A stretch of DNA of 64,000 nt. Origin: Craspedostauros australis (taxonomy: Eukaryota > Bacillariophyta > Bacillariophyceae > Mastogloiales > Achnanthaceae). The translations under genes were made by a program, and so were the position numbers. The notes beneath the pieces were generated by a model that was not told the origin of the DNA, did no database searches, and was given only the letters and a program-made list of their open reading frames with translations. The DNA lies in NCBI GenBank assembly GCA_026770025.1, contig JAMXDE010000005.1:3038001-3102000 (forward strand), written 5' to 3'. Of the stretch, positions 15,476-61,053 are shown one piece after another (the stretch's first letter is position 1; each line of letters begins with the position of its first letter).

Positions 15476-18400
15476 TTACATCATGCCGGTCAGAACGGAC
15501 ACGTCATCTCCATCGACATCCGCGGGATCATCTACGCCGTCTCCCATCCCCAACCCGTGCACTAGCACGTTCAGAGATCCATCACCGGCGCTGAGTTTCG
15601 AGCGATCGGCAAAGGCATCGAGTTCCGCGCATCTGGTGATGATGGCTCCGGTGAAGGCGTCCCGAGTGATCCCGAAGAGGTAGTTGCCATTGCCGTCATT
15701 GGTGAGGCCTTCCGGACGCTTGCGGTTCGGATCGTTCAGGGTCTTCAGGTACTTCTTGTGGCGCTGCACGAGGTCGTCAACCTTGCTCTTACCGCCCCAC
15801 GCCATGTAGTAGTCGACGGCATGCAGGAAGTAGTCTCCGACCATGTCCTTGAAGCCATGCTCGAGGAAGTGCTCACCCGCCAGCTCGTTGGCAAGGGCAC
15901 CGTGGTGGAGCCGTCCATTTTTTATCGACGCGAGGATCGCAAGGTTGTATGCATGCTTGATCTTGGGATCCCGTTTGTTCTTCGTGCTGATCGCGAGCTC
16001 TTCGGCCTCCAGTATGAACAACAGGTGGATCCAGACCCGGCCTCTGGCCTTCAACAGCTGGTGGGCATTCTTTATCAGCTTGCGCATGGCTGCCAAGTAC
16101 CGCCGATTTCCGGTGTCCCTGTATTTCTGTGCATTTGTCAGCCCCATCAAGAATGCCTCTCCCATCTTGACCTGCAGTGCCGGTTCTCCCGAGCAGACCA
16201 CGAGAAAGTTGGCCATTAGCCGGTTCGCGATTCTGTATCGACGATGATACAAGGAGAGGTACGCCCGAGTGGAAAACAGTATACAGTTGTGAAGGCACTC
16301 CGACGGATCCAAATTCTCGGTGCTGACGTTGCGGCGGGACAACGTTTCAATCTCAGCCCAATCGATCTGCTCCTCTCCCATGAAGGAGGCGAACAAGAAC
16401 TGAAAGTTGTCCGCCATGCCACGGAAGGCATTGATTTTGTAGCTCTCCAACATGTCAAGGACTTTGTTGTTTGCCTTGGCCAGCGGACCCAGCTCCATGC
16501 CATAGAAGTATCCCATCTGGATAGCACCTTGGTAGTTGAGAATCCCAATATCGAACTCTCCGACCTCCATCGAATCCAGATAGCCCTTCCTGTGCTGCCG
16601 CAGAACTTCAGGGTAGGGAAGGGTGTATGGAATGACGTAAGTGCCTGCGATGAACCGAAAGTGACCTTGCAGCGTCTTCGCATCCAGTCTTTCGAGGATG
16701 TGATGGCCGAGATCCATGCAACGTTCGGCCATGGCTTGATCTCCCATACCGCCGACCACCAGGCTGTATGTGATCAAGGCATTTGCCGATTCAGCGCAGA
16801 TGCCATACTTGATGGTCTTGGTCAGCATCACGCAGAGGTTGAGGACCACCAGGAGCAGATCGCTTACGGCCTTGGTACATATCGACATGTCGCTGCATAT
16901 CTTCATCGCGAAGGTCTTCTTCGGATCCGTCATCCACGGCCGTGCGAGGATCTCTTCGTTCGTGTTGTTCTTGAGGAAGCGCCGGATCTTCATCATGGCT
17001 TTGGCGATGTGGAGCACGTACCATCGCTTGGGGAACACTTTCAACGATCGGAGCAGACGCATCTCCACAGCCAAGGTTTCCGCGTGGCGGTTCTCCCGCG
17101 CCAGCGCTCTGGCCATGGAGAAGTACGTTGGCATCTTGTCTTCCAAAGACCTTGCTGTCTCCAGCACTTCATCGCAGAGCTTGTACCCAACCTCATAGTT
17201 GCCCAGGGACAGCTCGACGTCAGCACGCTTGCTGTAGACCTGCAAGCAGACGTCATAGTGCTCGTCGCTATCCCAGAGCGATGAGCTCGCTGCAGTTTGG
17301 CTTCCAGCAGATCTGGTAGTCTTGAGAGAGGTCTTGGGGGGTGGAACGATTTTCACAAGCTGCAGCGCACTATGCGCCTTTCGGAGGTATCCGACGGCCG
17401 CTTCCAGAGCTGCCATCTCCAACGCCTTCTCACCGACCTCCAGGTTCATGGTGACTGAGAACATGTGATCCTTGGTCTGCACGCTGTTCAAGTGGTCCGC
17501 AGCCACGAACAAGAGACCATCGTCAACACCCGCAATGGAGGAAGGTGAACTGAACATTTCGCTGGATGATGAGGAATCTGCGGACTGGAAAGACATTGTG
17601 GTCTTGTCTCGTGTGTAGGCTCTACTCTTTTCGTTGCAATGGTGTGTGCTGGAAGGATCGGCACCATCATTCTCTCCTTCCTGTTGAAGGTGAAGCTGCA
17701 TGCATCGGTGCATCTTCAGCAAGCAGCGACCGATCCGCAAGCGCAGCTTGTCACAACCCTCGCCAGCTAGGATCATACCGTGCGCCGCCTGTTGGATGCG
17801 ATCGTGCGCGAAGTGGTACTTGGTGCCACCGATGGGGTTGGAGATGAGACGCTGCAGAACTGCCTGCTCCAGAATGACCGAAAGCTCTTGCGTTGTCGAT
17901 ATGCCATCCATGGTATTAATGGCACCATCCACGTGCTTGCACTCATTCCGGAGCACCCGGTGCAGCACCGAGATGTCGAACACCGATCGGATGTACGCTG
18001 CGATGGACAGCACCTGCTGCAGCTGCATTGGGAGGTCCCGTAGCTTGGATTCGATGATGCCGATAATGTTGTCGCTGATGGGTAACTGAGCGCTGCTGGC
18101 ATTGCTGCTTTCATCACTTTCTGTGTTCAAGAGGTTCCATTTCCATTGTTGAGAAATAGGACTGAAGCCAAGGATCTGCTTTCTTTCGAGCTCTTCGAGT
18201 GCTTGCAACGCAAAATATATGTTGCCGTCAGTCTTGGCATGGAGCTTCTCGGACAGGATGCCAATATCTCCACAGTCCAGCATGATCGACAGCCACGCGG
18301 TCATCTCGGCGAGTGTGAGGTTGTTGATCGTGATCTGATGGAGACTTCGTAGATGACGACGTTTCTTGGCCTGAGATCTTGCCGTGGACGCACTTCTGAT

Positions 18401-19483
18401 TGATCCCTCATCAGCATCACCGCCAGCTGCCGTGTCGTGATAGTCATCATCGTCCTCGTCTGGTGACAATGGCTTGGCGAGGCAGCGCGATAGGGGATGG
18501 TCTGGGGCGAGTTCTGGCGGTTGGTCGTCGTGCGCATTCGTGGTCTGGCGGATGGCGCCCAGCAGGAGGAAGTGTTTGAGCCCCGGATCTGCCACCATGT
18601 GAGCGATCAGGTCCAGCCCGACGTTGGCGGACCATTGCAGATCGTCAAGGAACATGTAGATGGGTCGTTCCTTCGTCGAGACCGCCTTGATGAATTGAGC
18701 AAAAATATACTTGAGCTGATTCCAGGTCTTCTCCGTGAGCACTGCACTCGATGCTGGCAAAGAGGACCCGTCGTTGCGTTGGGCCTGGCTGCTGTTCAGG
18801 CTTGCGCTGCAATCGTCGCTGCGATGGCTGGCGGAGTGGCTCATGACGGAGTCATCTCCTCGCAATGCCGTGGGTGAGAGAACGGAAAGCGACGGTGCCA
18901 CGTTTACCAACGGACGAAGCCCGCCAGTGGGAAAGGTCACTCTGACACATTCGCGGATCCGATCGAGTTCTTCCTTGGATCCGCGCTGAAGCTGGCCTGT
19001 GAAGTCCTGAATGGCCTGCACGATGGCTGAGAATGGATCGCTCTGACCCGTGTATTCGTCATACTTTCCGCGAAGGACGTAGCAGCAGGAGCAAGCTGTG
19101 GCTGTCGCTGCTTGATCATTGCTATGCTGCTGCTGCTGCTTCTGGTCGATGTCAGTGTTGCAGATGCAGCATGTCTCCAAGAAGTGATCGGCAAGGGCAG
19201 ACTTTCCTGTGCCGCTGGCACCCCAAATCAGCATGGCTGGATACACATCGAGGATTTTGGTTGGCGATGGTTTGGGTTTGAGTGGCGACGGCGTTGCCTT
19301 GCCCTCCTCATTCAATGGTTCCTCTGAGGGAGGAGCACACTTCTGGTGCGCACCTATCACCTTGTCCTTGAAGGCCTTGAGCTGCTCGAGCTCTGCCTCT
19401 CTGCCAAGAAAGCGCGGCGTTTGCCTCCAGGGAGCAACGCCGCTTGGTGAACCAGATGGATTTGATGCATGATGCGATTCCAT
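15476..19483 (-). CDS. STAND-type ATPase with TPR-like C-terminal region, paralogue A
   Basis: A single-exon gene of 1335 residues with ATG at 19483–19481. The short N terminus (about 20 residues before GVAPWR) is followed by the AAA_16/COG3899 entry motif FLGREAELEQL (25–35), Walker A GASGTGKS (88–95), a Q-rich insert between CCIC (about 105–108) and CSCCY (131–135), GKYDEYTGQSDPFSAI, and Walker B IYMFLDDLQWS (275–285). LLLGAIRQ (sensor-like) and FAHDRIQQAAHGMI follow; the latter is the hallmark just before the TPR-like helices of COG3899 proteins. The C-terminal half is helical and ends AVDYYMAWGGKSKV, then DPNRKRPEGLTNDGNG, NYLFGITRD and a final DDVSVLTG. It is the most diverged of the six and lacks the acidic N-terminal extension of B–D. 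It probably acts as an ATP-driven signalling switch; no output domain is visible and the ligand is unknown. Confidence 0.9.
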   Translation of the reverse strand: MESHHASNPSGSPSGVAPWRQTPRFLGREAELEQLKAFKDKVIGAHQKCAPPSEEPLNEEGKATPSPLKPKPSPTKILDVYPAMLIWGASGTGKSALADHFLETCCICNTDIDQKQQQQHSNDQAATATACSCCYVLRGKYDEYTGQSDPFSAIVQAIQDFTGQLQRGSKEELDRIRECVRVTFPTGGLRPLVNVAPSLSVLSPTALRGDDSVMSHSASHRSDDCSASLNSSQAQRNDGSSLPASSAVLTEKTWNQLKYIFAQFIKAVSTKERPIYMFLDDLQWSANVGLDLIAHMVADPGLKHFLLLGAIRQTTNAHDDQPPELAPDHPLSRCLAKPLSPDEDDDDYHDTAAGGDADEGSIRSASTARSQAKKRRHLRSLHQITINNLTLAEMTAWLSIMLDCGDIGILSEKLHAKTDGNIYFALQALEELERKQILGFSPISQQWKWNLLNTESDESSNASSAQLPISDNIIGIIESKLRDLPMQLQQVLSIAAYIRSVFDISVLHRVLRNECKHVDGAINTMDGISTTQELSVILEQAVLQRLISNPIGGTKYHFAHDRIQQAAHGMILAGEGCDKLRLRIGRCLLKMHRCMQLHLQQEGENDGADPSSTHHCNEKSRAYTRDKTTMSFQSADSSSSSEMFSSPSSIAGVDDGLLFVAADHLNSVQTKDHMFSVTMNLEVGEKALEMAALEAAVGYLRKAHSALQLVKIVPPPKTSLKTTRSAGSQTAASSSLWDSDEHYDVCLQVYSKRADVELSLGNYEVGYKLCDEVLETARSLEDKMPTYFSMARALARENRHAETLAVEMRLLRSLKVFPKRWYVLHIAKAMMKIRRFLKNNTNEEILARPWMTDPKKTFAMKICSDMSICTKAVSDLLLVVLNLCVMLTKTIKYGICAESANALITYSLVVGGMGDQAMAERCMDLGHHILERLDAKTLQGHFRFIAGTYVIPYTLPYPEVLRQHRKGYLDSMEVGEFDIGILNYQGAIQMGYFYGMELGPLAKANNKVLDMLESYKINAFRGMADNFQFLFASFMGEEQIDWAEIETLSRRNVSTENLDPSECLHNCILFSTRAYLSLYHRRYRIANRLMANFLVVCSGEPALQVKMGEAFLMGLTNAQKYRDTGNRRYLAAMRKLIKNAHQLLKARGRVWIHLLFILEAEELAISTKNKRDPKIKHAYNLAILASIKNGRLHHGALANELAGEHFLEHGFKDMVGDYFLHAVDYYMAWGGKSKVDDLVQRHKKYLKTLNDPNRKRPEGLTNDGNGNYLFGITRDAFTGAIITRCAELDAFADRSKLSAGDGSLNVLVHGLGMGDGVDDPADVDGDDVSVLTGMM

Positions 19484-20736: not shown

Positions 20737-23700
20737 TTATGCAATGTCCGTGAGGATGGAGAGCTCATCCTCATCGAGGCCCACAGATCCCTCCACGCCA
20801 TCTCCGAGCTCCGATCCGAAGACGAGCACTCCGGCACCTTCCTCAGGGCCGTCTTTCGCATCGATGAAGGCTTCGATCCCTGTGCCTCTTGTGGTGATCG
20901 CTCCGGTGAAGGTGTCGCGGGTGATTCCAAAGAGGTAGTTGCCTTTGCCGTCGTCGGTGAGACCCTCTGGACGTTTGCGGTTCGGGTCGTTGACATTCTT
21001 GAGGAACTTCTTGCGACGCTGCATGACGTCGTCCACCTTGATCTTGCAACCCCACGCCTTGTAGTAGTCGACGGCGTGCACGAAGTAGTCGCCAGCCATG
21101 TCCTCGGAACCACACTGGAGGTAGTGCTCTCCTGCCAGCTCGTTGACCATGGCAGCATCCTGGATGCATCCGGCTCGGATTGCAGCGAGGATCGCGATGT
21201 TGTAGGCATCCTGAATCTTGGAGTGCCGTTTGTTCTTCATGGTGACAGCGAGGTCCTCCGCTTCGAGGATGAGCACTAGATGGATCCATGCTTGTCCTCT
21301 GGCTTTGGTCATCTTCTTCAGTTTCTTGGTTTTCTTGCGCAAGATTGTTAAGTGTTGCTGATTCCCTGTCTCCCTGTATCGTTCCGCATTGATGACGCCC
21401 ACGATGTAAGTGTCAGCGAGAGCAGCTAATGCTGATGGGTCGCCCGTGGCGAGGAAGACGAAGTTGGAGAACAAAGGGTCTGCCATTGCATAACGCCGAT
21501 GGAAGAGCGCCAAATACCCTCGACTGTAGAACATCGTACAGTCCTTGAGTGCATTGGAAGGGTCGAACTTCTCAACGGTGGGATCGCGACGGGATAAAGC
21601 TTCGATTTCGTCCCAATCGATTGGATCTTCTTTCAACATCACCCTGAACATGACTCGATAGTTGTCTGACAGTCCCTCGTAGGCCCTGAGTTTGTAAGTG
21701 TCCAGCTGGTCAAGCGCTTCCTCGTTTGCCTTGTGCAACGACTTCAATTCCAGCCCATACATAAGTCCGTGCATGACGCAGTTTTGGTAATTGAGGATAC
21801 CAATGCCAAATTCTCCAACCTCCATCGAGCGGCGATACCCTTTCTTGTGATCCCGCAGGGCATCTTCGAAAGTGGACCTGAACGAGTTGACGTAGGTCGC
21901 GGAAGTCAATCGGAACATGCCTTCCAGATGCCTTCCATCGACCTGCTCGAGGATCAGGTCGCCGATCTTCATACAACGCTGGGCCAGGGCTTGCTCTTTC
22001 GTGCCACTCAGTAGAAGTCCATATGCACCGAAGGCGCTTCCTGTCTCTGCGCAGATGCCGTGCTTGATAGATGTGCACAGCATCTTGCAATAGTTCAAGG
22101 TGGCCAAGTCCACGTTGTTTGTGGCACTGGTGCACATGTTGAAGTCTGCACCAATCGTCATGGCAGTGAGCTTCTTCTTATCCGTCATCCATGATCTTGC
22201 GAGGATCTCTTCGTTGGTGTTGTTCTTCAGGAAGTGCTTGACCTTCGTCCTGCTCATCATAGTGTGCAGCGAGTACCATCGCTTGGGGAACGCTTTCAAC
22301 GATTGGAGCAGACGCAGCTCCATCTCCATGCAGTCTCTGTGGCGATCCTGCCTGGTCAAGGCTCTGGCCATGGAGAAGTGGGTTAGCGCCTTGTCGTCCG
22401 GTGATCTGGCTCTCTCTAGCACCTCTTCACAGAGCTTGTAGCCGACCTCGTAGTTGCCGATCGACAACTCGACGTCGGCGCGTGCCCGATAGACCCGCAG
22501 GCAGATGTCGTAGTGCTCATCACTATCCCAGATCGATGAGCTGGCAGCGACTTGGGTTCTGGTAGACCCTTTGGTCTTGGGGGAGGTGTTGGGAGATGAG
22601 CCAGTTCTCACTCGCTGCAGCGCTTCATGCGCCTTTCGCAAGTACCCGGCGGCTGCTTCGAGCGCTGCCATCTCTGTGGCCTTCTCGCCAACCTCCAGAT
22701 TCATGATGACGGAGAACATATGGTCCTTGGTCTGCACGGTGTTCAAGTGGTCCACAGCCACGAACAACAGCCCATCATCTACTTCTGACGTAGTAAAGGT
22801 CGAAGTGAATGTTTCGGTTGACGTTACTGAGTCTGTGGACTGGGAGGGCATTGCGGCCTTGCCTTGTGGGTGACTTTTGCGTTGCTTCTTGGGCTCGTGG
22901 TCAGTCCCATGATTCACATCGTTGCCATGCTCTTCTTCCTCGTCCTCTTGAAGACGAGCCTGCATACGTCGGTACATCTGCAGCAAGCAGTGACCGATCC
23001 GCACGCGCAGCTTGTCGCGAGCCTCACCGGCTGGGATCATGCCTTGTGCGGCCTGCTGGATGCGATCGTGCGCGAAGTAGTATTTGGTACCACCGATGGG
23101 GTTGGAGATTAGACGCTCCAGAACCGCATGGTCCAGCATACTGGAGAGTTCTTGCTTGGAGGAGATGCGAGCCATGGAATCGATCTCTCCATCCACGTGC
23201 TTGCGCTCGCTTTCGAGCACCCGATGCAGCACCGAGATGTCGAACATCGATCGGATGTAGGCCGCAATGGACAACACCTGCTGCAGCTGCATGGGAAGGT
23301 CTCGCAGCTTGGATTCGATGATGCCGATGATGTTATCGCTGATGGGTAGTTGGGCGCTACCGGCGTTGCTGTCGTCGTCATCCCCTGGGTTGGAAAGGCT
23401 CCACTCCCATTGCTGGGAAATGGAGTTGAAGGCGAGAATGTCCTTTCTCTCCAGCTCTTCGAGAGCTTGCAGGGTGAAGAAGACATTTCCGTCTGTCTTG
23501 GCGTGGAGCTTCTCGGATAGATCTTCGATGTCGTTGCAGTCCAGCATGCTTGAGAGCCATGCGGTCATGTCATCCAGCGCGAGGTTGGTGATCGTGATCT
23601 GCTGGAGGGTTCGCGGAGGGCGGCGCTTCCTGGCTTGGGACATTGATGTGGTGGAAGTCACAACGGATGCATCATCGGGACCACCTGCTTTGTGGGTGCC

Positions 23701-24924
23701 GTCTTCACCCTCCTCTGACGACAACGGCGTGACGAGGCACCGCGCCAGCGGGTGGTCTGGAGTGAGATCCAGTGGTTCATCTGTATGCGGGTTGGTGTCC
23801 TGACGAATGGCACCAAGCAGAAGGAAGTTTTGCAACCCGAAATCAGCTACCAACCGGGCAATCAGGCTAAGGCCCACCTCGGCAGACCACTGCAGATCGT
23901 CGAGGAACATGTAGATGGGTCGTTCCTTCGTCGAGACTGCCTTAATGAACTGTACGAAGATGTACTGGAGTTGGTTCCACATCTTTTCTGTCATGGCTCC
24001 GCCCGCCGCTGGTGAAGGCGATTCACCGTTGGCGATGCTACCGTTCATGCTGGTGCTGTAGTTATCGCGCTGGCTGACGGATTGGCTCATAACAGAAGCG
24101 TCGCCTCGTGCTGACTTGGATGTCAAGATGGAGAGAGATGGCACCACTTTCACCATTGGACGAAGCCCGCCGCTGGGGAATGCCGCTCGCACGCATTCAC
24201 GCATCCGATCGAGTTCTTCCTTGGGTCCGTTCTTGAGTTGAGATGTGAAGTCTTGGATGGCCTGGACGATGGCCGAGAATGGGTCACTCTTTCCTGTGTA
24301 CTCGTCATACTTTCCACGCAGGACGTAGCAACAGGAGCAAGAGGATGACGAGGATGCTGCCTGTTCGTTGCTCTGCTGCTTCTGCTTCTGGTTGGAGCCC
24401 TTGCTGCAAATGCAGCATGTCTCCAGGAAGTGATCAACGAGAGCGGACTTTCCTGTACCGCTGACACCCCAGACCAGTACAGCTGGATGCACATCGAGCT
24501 TCTTGGTTGCTTTTGGTGTTGATGATGGTTCAGTCTTGGCCTTGTTGTCTGCCTCATCAGTCGATGGCTCCTGCGGAGAAGGAAGATTAGTCGTAGCATC
24601 GCTCTTGTGCTCACCGATGACCTTGTCCTTCAGAGCTTTGAGCTGCTCGAGCTCTGCCTCTCGACCGAGGAATTGCGATGTATCCTTCCAGGGAGCGACG
24701 CCACTTGATGGGCCAACTGCACCAGCTCCATCGTCGTTCGTGGTGGTGTTAGGGTTGGCGTCGTCTTTGGCCATGCCAGATCCATCGTCGATGGAAGAGA
24801 AGGAGGTGCTGACGTTCTGCTCTCCTTCCTCCTCTGCCTCCGTGGAAGAGTATCCGTCCTTTTGGAACTCTCCGATGGATGATGGGAGGTTGTCAAAACA
24901 GATTTGGGCCTGTTCGATCTCCAT
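20737..24924 (-). CDS. STAND-type ATPase with TPR-like C-terminal region, paralogue B
   Basis: A single-exon gene of 1395 residues. I start at the ATG at 24924 (MEIEQAQICFD) because all subfamily members align there; the open frame upstream only translates the (CT)n leader. Residues 1–75 are acidic and low-complexity. FLGREAELEQL is at 85–95, Walker A GVSGTGKS at 153–160, the CCIC–(Q/S-rich)–CSCCY insert at about 170–200, GKYDEYTGKSDPFSAI at about 204–219, Walker B IYMFLDDLQW at 337–346, LLLGAIRQ at about 368–375, ITITNLALDDMTAWL (443–457) and FAHDRIQQAA (617–626). The rest is TPR-like helix, then AVDYYKAWGCKIKVDDVMQR, NDPNRKRPEGLTDDGKG and NYLFGITRDTF, ending DELSILTDIA. Very close to D across the gene and its flanks, with short diverged patches. 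Confidence 0.92.
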   Translation of the reverse strand: MEIEQAQICFDNLPSSIGEFQKDGYSSTEAEEEGEQNVSTSFSSIDDGSGMAKDDANPNTTTNDDGAGAVGPSSGVAPWKDTSQFLGREAELEQLKALKDKVIGEHKSDATTNLPSPQEPSTDEADNKAKTEPSSTPKATKKLDVHPAVLVWGVSGTGKSALVDHFLETCCICSKGSNQKQKQQSNEQAASSSSSCSCCYVLRGKYDEYTGKSDPFSAIVQAIQDFTSQLKNGPKEELDRMRECVRAAFPSGGLRPMVKVVPSLSILTSKSARGDASVMSQSVSQRDNYSTSMNGSIANGESPSPAAGGAMTEKMWNQLQYIFVQFIKAVSTKERPIYMFLDDLQWSAEVGLSLIARLVADFGLQNFLLLGAIRQDTNPHTDEPLDLTPDHPLARCLVTPLSSEEGEDGTHKAGGPDDASVVTSTTSMSQARKRRPPRTLQQITITNLALDDMTAWLSSMLDCNDIEDLSEKLHAKTDGNVFFTLQALEELERKDILAFNSISQQWEWSLSNPGDDDDSNAGSAQLPISDNIIGIIESKLRDLPMQLQQVLSIAAYIRSMFDISVLHRVLESERKHVDGEIDSMARISSKQELSSMLDHAVLERLISNPIGGTKYYFAHDRIQQAAQGMIPAGEARDKLRVRIGHCLLQMYRRMQARLQEDEEEEHGNDVNHGTDHEPKKQRKSHPQGKAAMPSQSTDSVTSTETFTSTFTTSEVDDGLLFVAVDHLNTVQTKDHMFSVIMNLEVGEKATEMAALEAAAGYLRKAHEALQRVRTGSSPNTSPKTKGSTRTQVAASSSIWDSDEHYDICLRVYRARADVELSIGNYEVGYKLCEEVLERARSPDDKALTHFSMARALTRQDRHRDCMEMELRLLQSLKAFPKRWYSLHTMMSRTKVKHFLKNNTNEEILARSWMTDKKKLTAMTIGADFNMCTSATNNVDLATLNYCKMLCTSIKHGICAETGSAFGAYGLLLSGTKEQALAQRCMKIGDLILEQVDGRHLEGMFRLTSATYVNSFRSTFEDALRDHKKGYRRSMEVGEFGIGILNYQNCVMHGLMYGLELKSLHKANEEALDQLDTYKLRAYEGLSDNYRVMFRVMLKEDPIDWDEIEALSRRDPTVEKFDPSNALKDCTMFYSRGYLALFHRRYAMADPLFSNFVFLATGDPSALAALADTYIVGVINAERYRETGNQQHLTILRKKTKKLKKMTKARGQAWIHLVLILEAEDLAVTMKNKRHSKIQDAYNIAILAAIRAGCIQDAAMVNELAGEHYLQCGSEDMAGDYFVHAVDYYKAWGCKIKVDDVMQRRKKFLKNVNDPNRKRPEGLTDDGKGNYLFGITRDTFTGAITTRGTGIEAFIDAKDGPEEGAGVLVFGSELGDGVEGSVGLDEDELSILTDIA

Positions 24925-51231: not shown

Positions 51232-54200
51232 TTAATCGATGTCAGTCAGCACAGAGAGATCATCATCATCGAGGCCCACGGAACCATCCAGACCATCCCC
51301 AAGCTCCGATCCGAGCACGAGCGCGTTGCCGTGACCATCTCCACCCTTGCTACGATCGGTGAATACGTTAAGCTCGGTGCATCTCGAGGTGATCGCTCCA
51401 GTGAAGGTGTCCCGGGTGATCCCGAAGAGGTAGTTGCCATTGCCGTCGGCTGTGAGGCCCTCTGGACGCTGACGGTTCGGATCATTGAGAGTCTTGAGGT
51501 ACTTCTTGCGCCGCTTCTTGATGTCGGTCACCTTGCTCTTGCCACCCCACGCCGTGTAATAGTCAACGGCGTGCACGAAGTAGTCACCAACCATTTCCTT
51601 GGAGCCGTGCTCGACAAAGTGCTCTCCAGCCATCTCATTGGTGAGGGCAGCATCATGGATGCAGCCGGCCTTGGTTGCTGCGATGATCGCAAGGTTGTAG
51701 GCATGCTGGATCCTGGGGCTCTGCTTGTTCTTGAGGGTGATCGCGAGCTCTTCTGCCTCCATCATGAGCACGTGGTGCATCCAGAATTGGCCTCTGGCCT
51801 TGGCGATGTCTCTCAGCTTCTTGGTCAGCTTGCGCAGGGTCGTGAGATAGCTGCGTTTTCCTGTCTCTCGAAACCTCGCAGCGGAAATCAGTCCTGTGAT
51901 GAAGCACTCCCCCACTATGTACTGAAATGATATCTCGCCAATATTGAGGAGGACGAAGTTTCGGATCAGTCGTTCCGCAAGTTCGTATTGCCGATGGAAC
52001 AAGGTCAGAACAGCCCGGGTGTAGAAGAGCATCGAAGCCGAGATGAGCTCAGATTGGTCCAGAGTCTCCGTCGTGACGTCGCGCTTGGACGAGGCCTCCA
52101 ACTCAGGCCAGTCGACCGGCTCTTCTTCTCGGAAGTTTGCGAACATGACCCGGAGATGCACGGCGATGCCTCCAAATGCCGTAATCTTGTATGCCGCCAT
52201 CTGATCAAGGACTGCTTCAGCCGCCTTGAGCAGCGGTCCCACCTCCAGCCCGGAGAGCATTCCCGCGAAGACGGCGCCTTGATAATTTAGGAGGCCCATA
52301 TCGAACTCTCCGACCTCGAGAGAATCCAGATAGCCTCTCCTGAACTGCCGCAGCAGATCTGGGAAAGGACGGCTGAAGGGGATGATGTACCAGCTCGTGA
52401 TGAATCGGACATTGCCTTGGGTCGTTTTCCCGTCCACCAGATCGAGGATATCATGTGAGATCTCTGTGCAACGTTCTGCCGTGGCTTGTTCCCCCATACC
52501 GGCAATGACGAGGCCGTAGGTGATGAAGGCGTTGGCCGATTCCTTGCAGATGCCGTACTTGATGGTGGTGGACATCATCTTGCAGAGGTTGAGGATCACC
52601 AGAAGCATGTTGCCGGTGGCCTTGGTGCAGATGGCGAAGTCGGCGGCGACCTTCATGGCGAAGAGCTTCTTTGGGTCCGTCATCAGTGGCATTGAGAGGA
52701 TCTCCTCGTTGGTGTTGTTCTTCAGAAAAGACTTGATCTTCATCATGCATTTTATGATGTGAAGCGCGTACCATCGCTTGGGGATGGTCTTCAGTGATCG
52801 GAGCAGACGCAGCTCCACAGCCAGGGTTTCGGCATGGCGGTCCTGTCTGGCCAAGGCTCTTGCCATGGAGAGGTATGTCGCCATCTTGTCCTCCAACGAG
52901 CGGGCTCTCTCCAGCACTTCGTCGCACAGCTTGTAGCCGACCTCGTAGCTTCCCAGCGAAAGCTCGACGTCAGCGCGCGCGCAGTAGACCCGCAGGCAGA
53001 GACCGTAGTGCTCATCGCCGTCCCAGATGGATGGGCTGGCAGCAGCCTGGCTTCTGGCAGATCCCTTGGTCTTGGTGGAGATCGTCGCAGGTGCGCTGCT
53101 TCTCACAAGCTGCAACGAAGCATGTGCCTTCTGAAGATACCCGACAGCAGATTCGAGGGCTGCCATCTCCAGGGCCTTCTCACCCACCTCCATGTTCATG
53201 GTGGCAGAGAAGATATGGTCCTTGGTTGGTACGCTGTTCAAGTGGTCCGCGGCCACGAACAGGAGACCGTCATCGACTTCTGAAGTGGTGAAGGTCGAAG
53301 TGAACGTTTCGGCCGACGTCGTCGAATGCGTGGATTCAGACGACATGTTGCTCTTGTCTTCGGCTTCCGTCCCGCTCGCCTTCTTGTGCCTATGGTTGAT
53401 CCCGTGAGGCTCTTCATAGTCCTCCTCGTGCTCATTCTGAAGACGAACCTGCATGCGTCGGTATACCTTCAGCAAGCAGTGTCCGATCCGCACGCGCAGC
53501 TTGTCGCGAGCCTCACCGGCTGGGATCATGCCTTGTGCCGCCTGCTGGATGCGATCGTGCGCGAAGTGGTACTTGGTACCACCGATGGGATTGGAGATGA
53601 GACGCTCCAGAACTGCGGTCTCCAGCATGTCAGAAAGCTCTTGGGCGGTCGATATGCGATCCATATCGTCGATCTCACCGTCCACGTGTTTGCACTCGTT
53701 CTCGAGTACCCGATGCAGCACCGAGATCTCGAACATCGATCGGATGTAGGCGGCAACGGATAACACCTGTTGCAGCTGCATGGGAAGGTCTCGCAGCTTG
53801 GACTCGATGATGCCGAGGATGTCATCGCTGATGGGCAGCTGGGCGCTACCGGCGTTGCTATTATCGTCATCCTCTGGGTTGGAAAGGCTCCATTCCCATT
53901 GCTGGGAAAGGAGGTTGAAGGTGAGGATGTCCTTCCTCTCCAGCTCTTCGAGAGCCTGCATGGTGAAGAAGATGTTACCCTCTGTCTTGGCGTAGAGCTT
54001 CTCGGACAGATCTTCGATGTCGTTGCAGTCCAGCATGCTCGAGAGCCATGCGGTCATGTCGTCCGGCGTGAGGTTGGTGATCGTGATCTGGCGCAGATTC
54101 CTTGGATGACGGCGCTTGCCGACTTTGGACATTGACGTGGATGCAGTCATGACTGATGCATCGTCAGGCCCAGCAGCTGCATTTTGGTCGTTATCGATGG

Positions 54201-55389
54201 CAGCGTCTGGCGACAGCGGCGCGACGAGGCATCGCGAGAGAGGATGGTCGGGGGAAAAGTCCATGGGTTCATCAGTATGCGGGTTGACGTCCTGACGGAT
54301 GGCGCCGAGCAGCATGAAGTTTCTGAGCCCGGGATCGGCCACCATTTGTGCGATGAGGTCCAATCCGATGCTGGCAGACCACTGCAGATCGTCTAGGAAC
54401 ATGTAGATGGGTCGTTCCTTCGTCGAGACTGCCTTGATGAACTGCACGAAGATGTACTGGAGCTGGTTCCATGCGTTGTCGGTGACTGCTCCACCCGACG
54501 AAGGCGCGGATAAGTCGCCGTTCATCTGGCTGCCGTGCATACTCATGCTCATGCTGTAGTCATCGCGACGGCTGACGGACTGGCTGATGACGGAGGTATC
54601 GCCTCGGGCTGACTTGGGCATCAGGATGGAGAGAGATGGCACCACTTTCACCATTGGGCGAAGTCCACCAGTGGGGAAGGCCTTCCGCACGCATTCACGC
54701 ATGCGATCGAGTTCTTCCTTGGGTCCGTTCTTGAGTTGGGTCGTGAAGTCTTGGAGGGCTTGGACGATGGCCGAGAAGGGGTCACTCTGACCCGTGTACT
54801 CGTCATACTTTCCACGAAGGACGTAGCAGCAGGAGCAAGAGGATGATGAGGATGCTGCCTGGTCGTTGTTCTGCTGCTGCTGCTGCTGCTGCTGCTTCTG
54901 GTCGACGCCAGTGTTGCAGATGCAGCACGTGTCGAGGAAGTGATCGACGAGAGCGGACTTTCCTGTACCGCTGACACCCCAGACTAGTGCTGCTGGATGT
55001 ACATCGAGTCTCTTCCTTGGCTTTGGTTTGGGTGCTGGTGGTGTTGTTGCCTTGGTCTTGTCCTTGGCCTCATCAGCAGATGATTCCGGTGCAGGAGGAG
55101 TGGCATTGCTCTGGTGTTCACCGATGATCTTGTCCTTCAGAGCTTTGAGCTGCTCGAGCTCCGCCTCTCTGCCGAGGAAACGTGATGAATCTTTCCATGG
55201 AGCGATGGCGCTTGCTGGGCCAGACAGATTGGGTTGATCAACAGTTGGATTATTAGGGGCGTCGGTATGGACGAGATCAGAGGGCAGACTGTTGAGCATT
55301 ACATGCTTGTCTGCATCTGGTTCACCATGGTGGGCCTCCCCGATCGACGGGAGCCTCTGGAGACGGGAATGGCGTTGTTGAATCTCCAT
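51232..55389 (-). CDS. STAND-type ATPase with TPR-like C-terminal region, paralogue E
   Basis: A single-exon gene of 1385 residues. I start at the ATG at 55389 (MEIQQRHSRLQRLPSIGE) by analogy with B–D; another in-frame ATG lies at 55401. Walker A GVSGTGKS is at 138–145. The Cys insert is long, with an eight-Gln run encoded by pure CAG/CTG repeats (about 54,871–54,897) between CCIC and CSCCY. YMFLDDLQWSASIGLDLIAQ, LLLGAIRQDVNPH, SDDILGIIESKLRDLPMQLQ and FAHDRIQQAAQGMIPAGE follow. The C-terminal part reads AVDYYTAWGGKSKVTDIKKR, KYLKTLNDPNRQRPEGLTAD, NYLFGITRDTF and DDLSVLTDID. The TPR half clearly differs from B–D and is closer to F. Complete and apparently functional. Confidence 0.92.
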   Translation of the reverse strand: MEIQQRHSRLQRLPSIGEAHHGEPDADKHVMLNSLPSDLVHTDAPNNPTVDQPNLSGPASAIAPWKDSSRFLGREAELEQLKALKDKIIGEHQSNATPPAPESSADEAKDKTKATTPPAPKPKPRKRLDVHPAALVWGVSGTGKSALVDHFLDTCCICNTGVDQKQQQQQQQQNNDQAASSSSSCSCCYVLRGKYDEYTGQSDPFSAIVQALQDFTTQLKNGPKEELDRMRECVRKAFPTGGLRPMVKVVPSLSILMPKSARGDTSVISQSVSRRDDYSMSMSMHGSQMNGDLSAPSSGGAVTDNAWNQLQYIFVQFIKAVSTKERPIYMFLDDLQWSASIGLDLIAQMVADPGLRNFMLLGAIRQDVNPHTDEPMDFSPDHPLSRCLVAPLSPDAAIDNDQNAAAGPDDASVMTASTSMSKVGKRRHPRNLRQITITNLTPDDMTAWLSSMLDCNDIEDLSEKLYAKTEGNIFFTMQALEELERKDILTFNLLSQQWEWSLSNPEDDDNSNAGSAQLPISDDILGIIESKLRDLPMQLQQVLSVAAYIRSMFEISVLHRVLENECKHVDGEIDDMDRISTAQELSDMLETAVLERLISNPIGGTKYHFAHDRIQQAAQGMIPAGEARDKLRVRIGHCLLKVYRRMQVRLQNEHEEDYEEPHGINHRHKKASGTEAEDKSNMSSESTHSTTSAETFTSTFTTSEVDDGLLFVAADHLNSVPTKDHIFSATMNMEVGEKALEMAALESAVGYLQKAHASLQLVRSSAPATISTKTKGSARSQAAASPSIWDGDEHYGLCLRVYCARADVELSLGSYEVGYKLCDEVLERARSLEDKMATYLSMARALARQDRHAETLAVELRLLRSLKTIPKRWYALHIIKCMMKIKSFLKNNTNEEILSMPLMTDPKKLFAMKVAADFAICTKATGNMLLVILNLCKMMSTTIKYGICKESANAFITYGLVIAGMGEQATAERCTEISHDILDLVDGKTTQGNVRFITSWYIIPFSRPFPDLLRQFRRGYLDSLEVGEFDMGLLNYQGAVFAGMLSGLEVGPLLKAAEAVLDQMAAYKITAFGGIAVHLRVMFANFREEEPVDWPELEASSKRDVTTETLDQSELISASMLFYTRAVLTLFHRQYELAERLIRNFVLLNIGEISFQYIVGECFITGLISAARFRETGKRSYLTTLRKLTKKLRDIAKARGQFWMHHVLMMEAEELAITLKNKQSPRIQHAYNLAIIAATKAGCIHDAALTNEMAGEHFVEHGSKEMVGDYFVHAVDYYTAWGGKSKVTDIKKRRKKYLKTLNDPNRQRPEGLTADGNGNYLFGITRDTFTGAITSRCTELNVFTDRSKGGDGHGNALVLGSELGDGLDGSVGLDDDDLSVLTDID

Positions 55390-56823
55390 GTTGCTATGCA
55401 TCAAAAGTATGGCAGCAGTGACGTTATGTATGTGCTCGTGTGGAGGTAATGTCGATTTATGATTTTCTTTGCGAACGAATGAGGATGGTATGCGCGTCCC
55501 TATTCGTGAGTGTTGAATGGTGCGATTGGAGCTATGTCATTTGTGCGCGTCTACTTCGTGCGTTCTCGTGTGTCTGCGAGAAGTTGTTGTTTATCGTGCC
55601 GTTTCTGTGTGGGTAGCTGTTTGGAGGGGTTGTGAAGTCACTGCACCTGGAGATTCTGTGATGGTTCACTGTTGCAGGGACCGAACATTCGTGTGCGAGT
55701 GCCTCGTTGGTGGCAGGCTTCGCGAAAGCGTCGAAACGATGAAGGAAGTTGACGCAAGCGCGCAGGGTGGACGTGTCAGGTTCTTCGCAAATCGCCGAAC
55801 TATGCTGTCTCGTTGAAGGAATAAGTGGAGCCACCTATTAGGCCCAAAGAAAAAGCACAGCGTCGACTGAGGAAAGCGAGGGGCACTTCAAGAACAACAA
55901 CAGATGCCACGCACAGTCCCAGGAGTGATTGTGTTGGCGGGAAGGTGCAATGGCTGCGGCGGTCACATTGCGAAAGAGCGGACTGAGGAGTCGCCCAAGT
56001 CGCGCATAACACCGCCACGACGAAGAAGTTGATGAAAAGTCAATCCACACACATCACCATGCCCCGGTGAGCTCGGATTACTCTCCGATCCTTCCCAACA
56101 AACTCACCAGATTCAACGATCACAGAAGGCAATTGTTCCGACGTAGCCTTGGGCACTTTGTGCGTTCTGATGACGCGCGGTTCGTCGGGAATCTGTGGCT
56201 TCCGTGCGAACGATGGATTAATAATACGGTACGTCAAGACTTGACGAGCGACTGCGCCATAGTTTCTGATGGTGCTGACGTTGAGCAGAACGTGTTGTTC
56301 GCGAGAGAGTTTCGGGCGTGATGACCGAAGGGCAGTTGGGAGATAGATTAACTGTGTGGAAAAAACATCACCGACAGACAGAGTTTCTTCTCATTTCGGC
56401 CATTTCACTGCAACGAACAACAACTCCGTGCCTTCTACACGAACAATCAGCCCAGTCAAGAGTTCCATCGAGTTCACTCGCTGGCTGTCGTTGGAAACTG
56501 GCTGTGGCAGATTCCTATCTGTCTGTATGTTTGCATGGAAGCAGAAATGTGTAATTTTACTTTGCTGTGTTCCGCTCATTTCCGAGGTGCCTGTTTGAGT
56601 GCAGTGTCTGTTTGTTTGTGTGAACACACAATGGCATGTATGTTTGTCACAACGTCACCGCTCATCTCAGTGCCTTCAGTGGATCCCAAGTGCACACATT
56701 CCACTTCTTCAAACTAGTCGTGGGTCTGCGCACCTCCTTGAAGTCGTGGAAAATGGCGTTGTTCGTAACTCTTGATCGTGTCCTATTCTTAGATTACTGA
56801 CTCATGCGATGTCAGGCTCCTCT
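55390..56823. other. Intergenic, E and F
   Basis: This 1.4 kb should hold the promoter of E and the 3' UTR of F. No gene or recognisable repeat is evident; it is not similar to the B/D flank. Confidence 0.5.
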
Positions 56824-59800
56824 TTACATGTCGGTCAAGACGGAGACATCGTCATCCTCGAGGCCCATCGAGGCACGCGCAGCATCGTTGAACCCTGATC
56901 CGAACTGAAGCGCGTCGCCAGAAGACTCGGCGCCAGCACCGTGCTTGGAGCGATCGGCGAAGGCATCGAGTTCTGTACACCTCGAGGTGATCGCTCCAGT
57001 GAAAGGATCTTTGGTGATGCCGAAGAGATAGTTGCCGTCGCCATCGTTGGTCAGACCCTCGGGACGCTGACGGTACGGGTCATTGAGGGTCTTCAGGTAC
57101 TTCTTGCGACGCTGCTTGATGTCGGTCACCTTGCTCTTGCCACCCCACGCCTTGTAGTAGTCAACGGCGTGCACGAAGTAGTCACCAACCATGGCCTTGG
57201 AGCCGTGTTGCGCGAAATGCTCTCCTGCCATCTCGTTGGCAAGGGCAGCTTCGTGAATGCAACCAGCTTGAGTTGCTGCGATGATGGCGATGTTGTAGGC
57301 ATGCTCGATCTTGGAGTGCACCTTGTTCTTCGTGGTGATCGCGAGCTCTTCCGCTTCCAGCAGGAGCACTTGATGGATCCAGATTCGTCCTCTCGTGTTG
57401 GCCACATGTCTCAACCTCTTGATCCTTCTTCGCAGGTTTGCGAGTTCGCGACGGTTTCCCTTCTCTCTGTACTTCCCTGCGGCGATCAGACCACCAAAGA
57501 AACTCTCTGCGAGTATGTACAAGTAAGAGGGTTCCCCCTCCGATATGGTCAGGAAGCTGTTGAGGAGCCGCTCTGACATTTCGTACCGCCGATGGAACAA
57601 GGCCAGAACAGACCGGGTGTGGAAGAACATGCAGTTCCAGACGACCTCAGACTGGTTCAGATCCTCGGTGATGACATTGCGGCGGGATGCTGCGTCCAGC
57701 TCAGGCCAATTGATCGCCTGTTGCTCCGTGAAGTACCTCAGCATGATTTGCAGGTGTTCGGCAATGCCGCTGAAGGCTTTGATTTTGTACGCCGACATCT
57801 GGCCAAGGGCTGCCTCAGCCGCCTTCTGCAACGGCCCCAGCTCCAATCCGTAGGAGAATCCCGCAAACGCGCAGGCTTGGTAGTTGATGATGCCCATATC
57901 GAACTCCCCGACCTCCAGAGAGTCAAGATATCCCCTCCTGAACTCTCGTAGCATGCCTGGGAAAGACGCCTTGAAAGGGATGATGTACCAGCCCGTGATG
58001 AATCGGACTTGGCCTTGGGCGGTCTTCCCATCCGCCTGATCCAGGATGGTATGTGCGAGCTCTGCGCAGCGATCTGCTGTGGCTTGGTCTCCCATACCAC
58101 CGACGACGAGGCCGTAGGTGACGAAGGCGCCGGCCGATTCCTTGCAGATGCCGTACTTCATGGTGGTGGACAGCATCTTGCAGAGGTTGAGGACCACGAG
58201 GAGCATGTTGTTCGTCGACTTGGTGCAGACGGCGAAATCGGCGGAGATCTTCATGACGTACTTCTTGGTTGGATCCGTCATCCATGGCCTTGCAAGGATC
58301 TCCTCGTTGGTGTTTTTCTTCAGGAAGGACCTGAGCTTCACCATGGCCTTGGCGATGTGGAACATGTACCATCGCTTGGGGAACGACTTGAGCGATCTGA
58401 GCACGCGCAGCTCCACGTCCAGCGTCTCTGCATGACGGTTCTCTCTGCCCAAGGCTCTCGCCATGGAGAAGTATGTTGGCGTCTTGTCGTCCATCGATCT
58501 GGCCTTCTCGAGAACTTCGTCGCACAGGCTGTAGCCCAGTTCGTAGTTTCCAAGCGACAGCTCGACGTCGGCGCGAGCACGGTAGACCTTCAGGCAGACG
58601 TCGTAGTGCTCGTCGCTGTCCCAGATCGATTGGCTGGTTGCAGCTTGGCTTGCGGCGGTCTTGTGGGATGCCCCGATTCGCACACGACGCAGGGCTGCAT
58701 GTGCCTTTTGGAGGTATGTCGCAGCTGCTTGAAGGGCCGCCATCTCGAGCGCCTTCTCGCCGACTTCGAGGTTCATGGTGACGGAGAACATGTGGTCCTT
58801 GGTCTGCACGCTGTTCAAGTGGTCCGCGGCCACGAAGAGGAGGCCGTCATCCACGCCGGAAACGGAGAAGCCCGAGATGGACGATTCTGCAGATGTGGCA
58901 GAATGGGTGGATTGAGAGCACATCGAGGTCCTGTCATGACTGTAGGCCCTGTCCCTCGTCTTGGTATGAGAGGCTCTGGACGGAACGGCTTTGGCCTTGT
59001 TGTTGGCCGCGACATTGGCGGTGGCACTTTTGGCAGCAGCATATCCGAACTCGTGCTTGTGCTCGTCGTCGCGCATATGCTCCTGCTTGGTGCGGTGCAG
59101 CCTCAGCAAGCAGCGGCCGATGCGCAGGCGCAGCTTGTCGCGGGCCTCGCCGTAGGGGATCATGCCGTGCGCCGCCTGCTGGATGCGGTCGTGCGCGAAG
59201 TGGTACTTGGTGCCGCCGATGGGGTTGGAGATGAGACGCTCCAGAACGGCGCGCTCGAGCAAGTTCGAGAGGTCTTGCGTGGTGAAGGCGCCTTTGGTCG
59301 CCTCGAAGGCTCCATCCACGTGCTTCAGTTCGTTCTCCAGAACTCGGTGCAGCACCGAGATCTCGAACATCGATCGGATGTAGGCGGCGATGCAAAGTAT
59401 CTGCCTCAGCTGCTTGGGGAGGTCTCGGATGTTGGACTCGATGAGGCCGATGACGTTGTCGCTGACGGGCAGCTGGGCGCTGCTGGCGTTGCTCCTCTCA
59501 TCTTCAGCTGGCTTCGCAATATTCCACTCCCATTGGAAGGAGATGCGGCTGAAGACGAGGATGTTCTTGCGCTCCAGCTCTCTCAGCACCTGCAACGTGA
59601 AGAAGATGTTGCCGTCAGTCTTCCTGTAGATCTTCCGGGACAGGTCCTGCACATCGTCGCGTTCCAGCATGGTCGACAGCCACGCCGTCATCTCAGCGAG
59701 CGTGAGATTGGCGAGCGCAATCTGATGGAGGGTTCGTGGACGGCGGCGGTCGTTGGATTGGGATCTTGGCGTGGACTCGGTCCTGGTGGACCCTTCGTCG

Positions 59801-61053
59801 TTGATGTCAGAGGTCTGGCCGTCTTCTTGGGCGTCGACCGATGACAGCGGCTTGACGAGGCACTGCGACAGGGGGTGGTCGGGGGCGAGCTCCAACGGCT
59901 CGTCGGTGTGCGGGTTGGTCTCCTGGCGGATGGCGCCGAGCAGCATGAAATGCTTCAGGGTCCGATCGGCCACCAGGTGGACAAGCAGGTCCAGGCCGAT
60001 GCTGGCGGACCATTGCAGATCGTCGAGGAACATGTAGATGGGTCGTTCCTTCGTGGAGATCGCCTTGATGAACTGCACGAAGATGTACTGGAGCTGATTC
60101 CAAGTGTTCTCCGTGAACACCTCGTTCGGTGCCGTCGAGGAGCCTGCGCCGTTGATCTGGCTGCCATTGAGGCTGACACGGTAGCTAGCGGAGTTGCTCG
60201 TGACGGAGGCATCTGCCCGGGCCGGCTTGGGCGAAAGGATGGAGAGGGATGGGATCACAGTCACCAGCGGGCGGAAGCCTCCGGTGGGGAAGGCCACTCG
60301 GATGCATTCGCGCAGCCGGTTGAGCTCCGATTTGGGGCCGCGCTTGAGCTGGGCCGTGAAGTCCTCGATGGCCTGGATGATGGCCGAGAATGGGCTGCTC
60401 TGGCCAGTGCACTCGTCGGACTTGCCGCGCACGATGTAGCAGCAGGTGCAGCATGATGACGATGATGCTTCCGTAGGTGGAGTTGCTGCTGATGTTTCTG
60501 CTGCTGTCTGTTCGTTGTCCATCTGCTGCTGCTGCTGCTGCTGCTGCTGTTGATGCTCGGAGCTGCTGTTGCAGGTGCAGCATGTGGCCAGAAAGTGATC
60601 GACGAGCGCAGACTTGCCCGTACCGCTGATACCCCAGAGCAGCACGGCCGGATGCACGTCAGGCTTTCCAGTTGGTGCCGTTGGGCCACTCTCGTTCGAT
60701 GGCTCCTGTGCATGGAGATCGACGTTCTGATCCTGCTCGATGATCTGCTTCTTGAGGTTTCGGAGTTGCTCCAGCTCTGGTTCTCTGCCGAGAAAGCACG
60801 ATGATTCCCTCCACGGAGCACCACCGTTCGATGATCCGGATGGATCGCTGGTTTCACCGGCTTTGCCATCGTCGATGTTTCTGCCGCTGTTGCTCATGGC
60901 GCTAGCAGAAGGGAAGACGGTGGATGGGAGGTTGTTGATGTTCTGCTCCTCCTCGGTGTATCCATCATCGTAGAAGTCTCTGCCTGACGAAAAGACCTGC
61001 GCTTTGGATGGGCGCTGCTGGCTGACTGGGCTAGATGCGTGCTGGATCTCCAT
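56824..61053 (-). CDS. STAND-type ATPase with TPR-like C-terminal region, paralogue F
   Basis: A single-exon gene of 1409 residues, started at the ATG at 61053 (MEIQHASSPVSQQRPSKAQ); the open frame upstream is Ser/Thr-rich leader. Walker A GISGTGKS is at 141–148. The insert runs from CCTC through a ten-Gln tract to CCTCCY, the longest of the six. Here GKYDEYTGxSDPF has become GKSDECTGQSSPF. YMFLDDLQWSASIGLDLLVH, LLLGAIRQETNPH, FAHDRIQQAAHGMIPYGEAR and TPR-like helices follow, then AVDYYKAWGGKSKVTDIKQR, NDPYRQRPEGLTNDGDG, NYLFGITKDPF and DDVSVLTDM. Codon use is more GC-rich than in B–D (see 59,100–60,400). All core ATPase motifs are intact. Confidence 0.92.
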   Translation of the reverse strand: MEIQHASSPVSQQRPSKAQVFSSGRDFYDDGYTEEEQNINNLPSTVFPSASAMSNSGRNIDDGKAGETSDPSGSSNGGAPWRESSCFLGREPELEQLRNLKKQIIEQDQNVDLHAQEPSNESGPTAPTGKPDVHPAVLLWGISGTGKSALVDHFLATCCTCNSSSEHQQQQQQQQQQMDNEQTAAETSAATPPTEASSSSCCTCCYIVRGKSDECTGQSSPFSAIIQAIEDFTAQLKRGPKSELNRLRECIRVAFPTGGFRPLVTVIPSLSILSPKPARADASVTSNSASYRVSLNGSQINGAGSSTAPNEVFTENTWNQLQYIFVQFIKAISTKERPIYMFLDDLQWSASIGLDLLVHLVADRTLKHFMLLGAIRQETNPHTDEPLELAPDHPLSQCLVKPLSSVDAQEDGQTSDINDEGSTRTESTPRSQSNDRRRPRTLHQIALANLTLAEMTAWLSTMLERDDVQDLSRKIYRKTDGNIFFTLQVLRELERKNILVFSRISFQWEWNIAKPAEDERSNASSAQLPVSDNVIGLIESNIRDLPKQLRQILCIAAYIRSMFEISVLHRVLENELKHVDGAFEATKGAFTTQDLSNLLERAVLERLISNPIGGTKYHFAHDRIQQAAHGMIPYGEARDKLRLRIGRCLLRLHRTKQEHMRDDEHKHEFGYAAAKSATANVAANNKAKAVPSRASHTKTRDRAYSHDRTSMCSQSTHSATSAESSISGFSVSGVDDGLLFVAADHLNSVQTKDHMFSVTMNLEVGEKALEMAALQAAATYLQKAHAALRRVRIGASHKTAASQAATSQSIWDSDEHYDVCLKVYRARADVELSLGNYELGYSLCDEVLEKARSMDDKTPTYFSMARALGRENRHAETLDVELRVLRSLKSFPKRWYMFHIAKAMVKLRSFLKKNTNEEILARPWMTDPTKKYVMKISADFAVCTKSTNNMLLVVLNLCKMLSTTMKYGICKESAGAFVTYGLVVGGMGDQATADRCAELAHTILDQADGKTAQGQVRFITGWYIIPFKASFPGMLREFRRGYLDSLEVGEFDMGIINYQACAFAGFSYGLELGPLQKAAEAALGQMSAYKIKAFSGIAEHLQIMLRYFTEQQAINWPELDAASRRNVITEDLNQSEVVWNCMFFHTRSVLALFHRRYEMSERLLNSFLTISEGEPSYLYILAESFFGGLIAAGKYREKGNRRELANLRRRIKRLRHVANTRGRIWIHQVLLLEAEELAITTKNKVHSKIEHAYNIAIIAATQAGCIHEAALANEMAGEHFAQHGSKAMVGDYFVHAVDYYKAWGGKSKVTDIKQRRKKYLKTLNDPYRQRPEGLTNDGDGNYLFGITKDPFTGAITSRCTELDAFADRSKHGAGAESSGDALQFGSGFNDAARASMGLEDDDVSVLTDM
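60526..60553. repeat. (CTG)n tract encoding poly-Gln in F
   Basis: A pure CTG run on the plus strand, read as CAG codons by gene F. It lies between the two Cys clusters. Lengths differ at the same place in A, B, D and E, so this site changes length readily. Confidence 0.8.

Follow-up and report, generated by a model that had tools for sequence, protein, structure and literature searches.

A clustered family of stand-alone ATPase-TPR proteins with a shared C-terminal peptide and a diversified repeat stretch in the diatom Craspedostauros australis

What is the role of six neighboring genes that encode the ATPase and tetratricopeptide repeat (TPR) parts of a signaling protein and none of its catalytic parts? 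The question is raised by a stretch of 64,000 nucleotides (hereafter the window; C3:3038001-3102000, where C3 is contig JAMXDE010000005.1 of assembly GCA_026770025.1) in the genome of the diatom Craspedostauros australis, and we have analyzed it together with the genome as a whole (74.8 Mb in 90 contigs). A sequence-only reading of the window had described a tandem array of six such genes, expanded in one lineage, the products of which act on other proteins in trans. The array is real, and it is larger and more structured than that reading had it; as a whole, the interpretation is partly supported. Our best explanation, proposed tentatively and at somewhat less than an even chance, is that the array encodes lineage-expanded, stand-alone STAND-type signal-transduction ATPases acting as ligand-gated switches.

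Listing of open reading frames in the window (ATG-started, at least 1300 aa) gave exactly six, all on the minus strand, each a single uninterrupted frame of 1335-1409 aa, and confirmed that the six genes are intact and intronless at these coordinates:

15476..19483, minus strand: W1, AAA_16-TPR protein of 1335 aa, intronless (open reading frame; AAA_16, E 1.6e-16)
20737..24924, minus strand: W2, AAA_16-TPR protein of 1395 aa, recent duplicate of W4 (open reading frame, Pfam, 93.6% nucleotide identity)
35165..39352, minus strand: W3, AAA_16-TPR protein of 1395 aa (open reading frame, Pfam)
45912..50096, minus strand: W4, AAA_16-TPR protein of 1394 aa (open reading frame, Pfam)
51232..55401, minus strand: W5, AAA_16-TPR protein of 1389 aa, mosaic (open reading frame, Pfam, region trees)
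56824..61053, minus strand: W6, AAA_16-TPR protein of 1409 aa (open reading frame, Pfam)

AAA_16 was above its Pfam cut-off in all six proteins (E 6.4e-15 to 3.9e-18), TPR_12 was found in five of them below its cut-off, and the C-terminal TPR-type superhelix that characterizes COG3899/AAA_16 ATPase-TPR proteins is predicted. The motif order that had been claimed for the ATPase was seen, namely FxGRxxE, Walker A (GxSGTGKS in 6/6), Walker B, FAHDR/QAA and W/K, and most of these residues are invariant in an alignment of 16 members, composed of W1-W6 and ten full-length copies from elsewhere in the genome: F335, D337-W341, FAHDR 613-617, QAA 620-622, W1285 and K1290 in W5 numbering, as well as the Walker A and Walker B residues (16/16). 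AAA_16 was found by Pfam in each of the 16. The N termini are short and of low complexity, as had been described, with 24-88 such residues before FxGRxxE, which begins at residue 25-89. The ratio of nonsynonymous to synonymous change (dN/dS), which had been suggested as a check, is 0.25-0.36 over whole genes in all 15 pairs, and by this measure the six genes are maintained under purifying selection. The tightest intergenic gaps are 1.1 kb (W4-W5), 1.25 kb (W1-W2) and 1.4 kb (W5-W6). A segmental duplication (20481-26053 against 45670-51213, 93.6% nucleotide identity over 5.6 kb) spans W2 and W4 plus about 1.1 kb upstream. Because the upstream DNA of W2 and W4 is similar over 1.15 kb (88%), W3 has only about 350 bp in common with it, and Pfam gives nothing at E<=0.01 for the upstream open reading frame in the same frame (50199-50828), a hidden exon upstream of these genes seems unlikely.

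No catalytic output domain accompanies the ATPase. Pfam searches found no catalytic output family in W1-W6 at E<=1 and no kinase, histidine kinase or cyclase domain in the 16 members at E<=0.1, so that a hidden catalytic domain can be rejected and the claimed lack of a fused one stands. Since the ten copies from outside the array are stand-alone too, the lack of an output domain is no peculiarity of the array. In NCBIfam, eight of the 16 members matched TOMM_kin_cyc (best E 1.5e-11), seven TIGR02928, three holB and two a T3SS chaperone, with no match for W5; we read the TOMM_kin_cyc, TIGR02928 and holB matches as putatively due to the ATPase part. NB-ARC was not among the 18 Pfam families found at E<=0.1 in the 16 members, PADLOC models of anti-phage defense gave no family at E<=0.01 for the three proteins submitted, and sequence searches of PDB gave nothing for W5 alone or for a profile of the TPR part and only generic P-loop matches for a profile of the nucleoside triphosphatase (NTPase) part.

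The bacterial relatives indicate what is missing. A profile scan of bacterial genomes found at least 550 related stretches, the best 80 of which were kept and, with four loci from viral contigs, made up a set of 84. Among 24 of these, hand-picked for spread (23 bacterial and one from a viral contig), Pfam found AAA_16 in 24, GAF in 23, Pkinase in 22, HisKA and HATPase_c in 14 each, GGDEF in four and Guanylate_cyc in two, in agreement with the earlier statement that the module is usually fused in bacteria. The matches begin at W5 residue 74-197; in 62 of the 84 loci they start at or before residue 200 and end at or after residue 1280, and in 80 of the 84 at least 258 residues precede the matched part. 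The four viral-contig loci have long N- and C-terminal extensions, similar to those of the other relatives. As judged from these alignments, what remains in the diatom proteins is the middle of the bacterial-type chain, both ends of which are gone.

The family extends far beyond the window. A DNA pattern for FAHDR[IV]xQAA matched at 110 places genome-wide and its reversed control at none, although some contigs may be second haplotypes, in which case genome-wide counts are inflated. Rather than six copies, at least 16 are present at C3:2.954-3.253 Mb, in three blocks of single orientation: four on the plus strand, six on the minus strand (the window) and six on the plus strand. Of the 110 places, 100 were listed and used in position tests; 45 of them have a neighbor within 30 kb, against 7.7 expected under uniform placement (maximum 19 in 500 draws). 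All 11 copies of the C3 cluster with enough sequence fall into one clade among 35 sequences (FastTree support 0.999), and eleven full-length copies elsewhere have 29-37% identity to the array. The expansion of the C3 cluster is thus local on the sequence tree, and this part of the claim of lineage-specific expansion holds, whereas the stand-alone state, as noted above, is not specific to the array. Counts of homologues in other diatoms, which had been proposed as a check, are already published for COG3899: 42 in T. oceanica, 48 in T. pseudonana, 11 in P. tricornutum and 2 in F. cylindrus in a 2012 table (PMC3491386), the row of which concerns the same COG and gives no architecture, tail, clusters or diversified stretch. 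Our searches of the open-licence literature turned up no account of the array, of the tail peptide or of the diversified stretch. Four further AAA_16 proteins (L012, L015, L019, and L021) form a distinct subfamily; in L012 and L021, about 600 residues with no Pfam match at E<=0.01 lie ahead of AAA_16. At L023, a Copia-type element by its domains (4278-8882, minus strand; RVT_2, E 4.5e-41) adjoins an ATPase-TPR gene.

A conserved C-terminal peptide, which the sequence-only reading had overlooked, is a candidate for the output element. It is found in each window gene:

15489..15508, minus strand: W1 tail, DDVSVLT (from sequence)
20750..20769, minus strand: W2 tail, DELSILT (from sequence)
35178..35197, minus strand: W3 tail, DELSVLT (from sequence)
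45925..45944, minus strand: W4 tail, DELSVLT (from sequence)
51245..51264, minus strand: W5 tail, DDLSVLT (from sequence)
56834..56853, minus strand: W6 tail, DDVSVLT (from sequence)

All 17 full-length copies that had been selected independently of the tail have the peptide D-x-x-S-[VI]-L-T, which begins 9-21 residues before the stop, behind a low-complexity linker that barely aligns. These 17 are the six window copies and eleven of 17 AAA_16 places, from which L012, L015, L019 and L021 (the other subfamily), L023 (locus end) and L024 (broken) were dropped. Position 2 is D, E or, once, G, and position 3 is V, L or, once, M; in the 16-member alignment D1380, S1383, L1385 and T1386 (W5) are invariant. 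A count over 35 rows includes 18 that had been selected by the tail itself and has not been used as evidence. Genome-wide, the pattern DD[VL]S[VI]LT matched 52 times against 6 for the reversed control, and among the 30 matches examined 25 end family proteins (9-13 aa before the stop), one lies inside such a protein and four are elsewhere; with D or E allowed, there were 75 matches against 38 for the control. The peptide was found in none of 215 open reading frames of at least 400 aa at the loci of the 84 relatives, nor in L012, L015, L019 and L021. With its hydrophobic core and acidic flank, it may resemble a SUMO-interaction motif. L024, a family copy broken into three frames, has the tail.

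While the switch and the tail are conserved, the middle of the TPR part is diversified between paralogues, a second feature that the sequence-only reading had overlooked:

21307..22170, minus strand: W2, diversified TPR stretch, residues about 919-1206 (W2/W4 differences, dN/dS)
35834..37114, minus strand: W3, diversified TPR stretch, residues about 747-1173 (W2/W3 and W3/W4 differences)
46479..47342, minus strand: W4, diversified TPR stretch, residues about 919-1206 (W2/W4 differences, dN/dS)
51868..52647, minus strand: W5, diversified TPR stretch, residues about 919-1178 (differences between W5, also L044, and L042)

The tandem copies compared are paralogues, since each group is confined to a single contig: L034-L036 to C2, and L042, L048-L050 and the window copies to C3. 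Nucleotide identity falls in the TPR middle in the eight window pairs tabulated, barely so in W2/W4. Differences inside and outside the stretch were compared by 2000 permutations in ten pairs, which overlap, and a hump was found in all ten. The weakest is W2/W4 (6.3% inside and 3.0% outside, P 0.017). The values for W2/W3 (18.0% and 7.7%), W3/W4 (18.9% and 8.7%) and W5/L042 (9.3% and 3.3%) were reached by none of the 2000 permutations, and the same is true of the C2 trio, the pairs of which differ by 17.0, 16.9, and 19.1% inside and by 0.6, 0.7, and 1.4% outside. L048/L049 differ by 5.8% inside and 0.5% outside, and L048/L050 by 10.4% and 4.4%, with the hump further downstream. In the C2 trio, compared over the last 500 codons only, identity is 74-88% in 16 of 18 100-bp steps over a 600-bp stretch and 95-100% in the other coding steps, and the DNA behind the genes soon ceases to align. 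Because the pairs overlap and the limits differ, the word cassette applies strictly to the C2 copies only.

Within residues 905-1160 the dN/dS of W2/W4 is 0.85, compared with 0.22 in the rest of the protein (Fisher P 0.0005); the contrast is weaker in W3/W4 (0.51 in the stretch and 0.33 elsewhere, P 0.014) and not significant in W2/W3 (0.43 and 0.32, P 0.11). In the C2 trio the synonymous changes are also concentrated in the stretch, and this requires either that the flanks were converted or that the stretch was exchanged, selection alone being insufficient. W5 is a mosaic: its NTPase half (86-640) groups with W2-W4 and its TPR middle (921-1110) with W6, each with an ultrafast bootstrap (UFBoot) of 100, while the W5-W6 grouping for residues 1111-1310 has a UFBoot of 80. 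Variable sites are more frequent in alternate helices (113/321 against 60/285), which is suggestive only because the sites are not independent. Diversification of the reverse-transcriptase type was rejected, since the substitution spectrum was ordinary in four pairs with no adenine bias, and so were separate silent donors of the stretch, since, of the 11 places that match the L034 stretch, 10 adjoin a flank match and the eleventh is only 93 bases long.

These features can be combined as follows. The NTPase, with a predicted MalT/Apaf-1-like arrangement, would form the switch, and the long TPR-type superhelix predicted behind it the sensor. In MalT and Apaf-1, ligand binding is followed by ADP-to-ATP exchange and by opening or oligomerization. 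In the diatom proteins the diversified TPR stretch of each copy may bind its own ligand, a peptide, a small molecule or a protein; ATP would then replace ADP, and the protein would open or oligomerize. The shared C-terminal peptide, on its flexible linker, would recruit one common partner, so that many sensors would feed a single output in trans. Gene conversion would homogenize switch and tail and leave the sensor stretch different. An ATPase-TPR hub acting on other proteins in trans, as had been suggested, is plausible.

Several points weigh against this explanation. In 40 of the 100 copies listed, a relaxed tail was found 2.13-2.43 kb downstream of the motif; in the control, mirrored upstream, the figure was 5 of 100. 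Some members therefore have a different tail or none, and the relaxed-pattern counts together with the tailless subfamily mean that the tail is a marker for much of the family but not for the whole. In the stretch synonymous changes rise too, and dN/dS is below 1 in nearly all comparisons, which falls short of proof of diversifying selection; the same hump could result from drift combined with conversion of the flanks. The variable sites of different paralogue groups coincide little above chance in the alignments (34 common sites against 24.0 expected, 31 against 28.3, and 31 against 27.3). Helical repeats yield high structural Z scores without shared function; Foldseek matches were mostly to generic TPR scaffolds, and the one PDB match at E<=0.001 was to a chain of the Pol II elongation complex. 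The ligand, the partner and the oligomerization of these proteins are all things that we infer.

A more specific version of the ligand-gated switch, which we think rather doubtful though worth stating, is that the germline encodes a repertoire of some hundred NLR-like recognition proteins of the STAND-TPR type. Tandem copies would have a homogenized switch and a docking peptide in common and a diversified TPR stretch roughly 200 residues long; one response would then serve many specificities, for self, mate, bacterium or virus. Diversity of sensor repeats beside a conserved switch, as in a hypervariable repertoire, was found between paralogues only and with limits that differ by group. Judged by their sequences, the six genes resemble a ready-made set of recognition proteins within a unicellular alga, and the case for a repertoire is credible. 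If it is true, an intronless repertoire based on AAA_16 in a diatom would suggest that multicellularity is not required, and the genes would be concrete candidates for discrimination of mates, bacteria, and viruses by diatoms. Should the recognition reading fail, the family still presents the middle module of a bacterial sensor kinase standing alone and multiplying.

The strongest competitor, in our view unlikely, is that the proteins are constitutive TPR assembly scaffolds or chaperone-like adaptors of ATPase ancestry, in which the TPR middle diverges as the least constrained part and gene conversion overwrote the flanks. The invariance of the Walker A and B residues in all 16 members, a hump that has sharp limits in the C2 copies and shifting ones in the other groups where it reappears, and a dN/dS of 0.85 in the stretch of W2/W4 against 0.22 elsewhere all speak against it.

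It is improbable that some of the family members are linked to silicon transporter (SIT) genes and serve silicon-responsive or cell-wall signaling. Besides diatoms, a few other groups are known to have silicon transporter genes. Silic_transp gave 88 matches in the genome, 32 of them with E below 1e-227; these near-complete matches include many of near-equal score and a few with internal stops, and there are fragments in addition. Six of the 32 lie within 5 kb of a family gene, against 0.73 expected: in four of the pairs both genes are on the same strand, some 2.0-2.1 kb apart, and the other two pairs are divergent, with about 1.0 kb between the genes; however, this enrichment was found post hoc, with assumed gene extents and seven genes added from hand-picked tail matches, and it represents about two independent arrangements. 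In the first test, with 53 SIT rows, three of 100 copies were within 5 kb (0.97 expected, P 0.097), and the window has no SIT gene. On assumed gene extents, pairs of SIT and ATPase-TPR genes are found at C2:1.009-1.035 Mb, at C61:18-92 kb and at two places on C37. Two blocks of the ATPase-TPR cluster are separated by a region (C3:3.130-3.196 Mb) with four SIT copies that were matched in pieces. A published gene coexpressed with SIT1 has a diatom-only domain, which also speaks against the link; among the 30 T. pseudonana proteins with this domain, COG3899 is likewise present in 3 (PMC3478156).

The array, which had been described as a tandem, is interrupted within the window by one gene on the other strand:

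30127..34838, plus strand: multi-exon guanylate cyclase-phosphodiesterase gene (Guanylate_cyc, E 2.2e-49; PDEase_I, E 7.3e-29)

This gene, which by eye has apparent membrane segments, raises the idea that stand-alone guanylate cyclases are under the control of the ATPase-TPR proteins in trans, as a substitute for the fusion known from soluble adenylyl cyclase and from some of the bacterial relatives. Guanylate_cyc in two of the 24 relatives and 150 matches in the genome, several per gene in places and one of them in this gene, fit with it, but of 100 copies only 5 have a cyclase at a distance of 10 kb or less (4.1 expected, P 0.38) and 1 at 5 kb or less (2.2 expected). The neighbor tests, for cyclases and for the first SIT count, used 100 of 110 motif places, 127 of 150 cyclase rows (those left out being mostly second fragments and weak rows) and 53 of 88 SIT rows; 15 contigs had known extent, and the others were set to 1.05 times the largest coordinate seen. 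As proximity is not enriched genome-wide, the cyclase was rejected as a conserved neighbor; it is probably not part of the ATPase-TPR system, and regulation of cyclases by the family is likewise a poor prospect. Diatom guanylate cyclases react to mating cues (PMC5485032). An open reading frame with AAA_26 by Pfam (11423-12358, minus strand; E 3.5e-15) is apparently unrelated to the array.

Neutral growth in copy number of a largely redundant or decaying family, to which L024 with its three frames and the lone 93-base match at C1:761576 might point, is very improbable given the six intact window frames, dN/dS of 0.25-0.36 in all 15 pairs and a tail kept in 17 of 17 copies chosen without it.

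Plants and fungi are known to have receptor repertoires in which a conserved nucleotide switch is paired with diversified repeats. In brown algae, candidate immune receptors were reportedly described by Zambounis 2012 and Teng 2023, as a citing paper has it. The citing paper describes NB-ARC-TPR and LRR-ROCO candidate immune receptors of brown algae with shuffled repeat exons (PMC11378527). Both these receptors and the array are stramenopile nucleotide-switch proteins with diversified repeats; the array differs in having AAA_16 and not NB-ARC, diversification inside one exon and a unicellular host. Since the window genes are intronless, exon shuffling does not occur in them, unlike in the brown-algal receptors. 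Among STAND ATPases, the predicted NTPase and TPR sensor folds may be like those of MalT, Apaf-1 and 6mfv, which we take to be PH0952, while no DNA-binding, CARD or other effector domain was found in the diatom proteins. Mammalian soluble adenylyl cyclase has an NTPase-TPR-like C-terminal part with its cyclase domains in the same chain, whereas the 16 diatom members have no cyclase domain. The closest likeness is to the COG3899 proteins, mostly cyanobacterial, with the order kinase-AAA_16-TPR-GAF-histidine kinase: their core aligns with 20-27% identity in the best segment, and FLDDLQW, F-x-HDR-x-QQAA and WG...K are common to both (at least 80% on each side). The COG3899 relatives carry catalytic ends, whereas the diatom copies have dispensed with both and have an added tail peptide.

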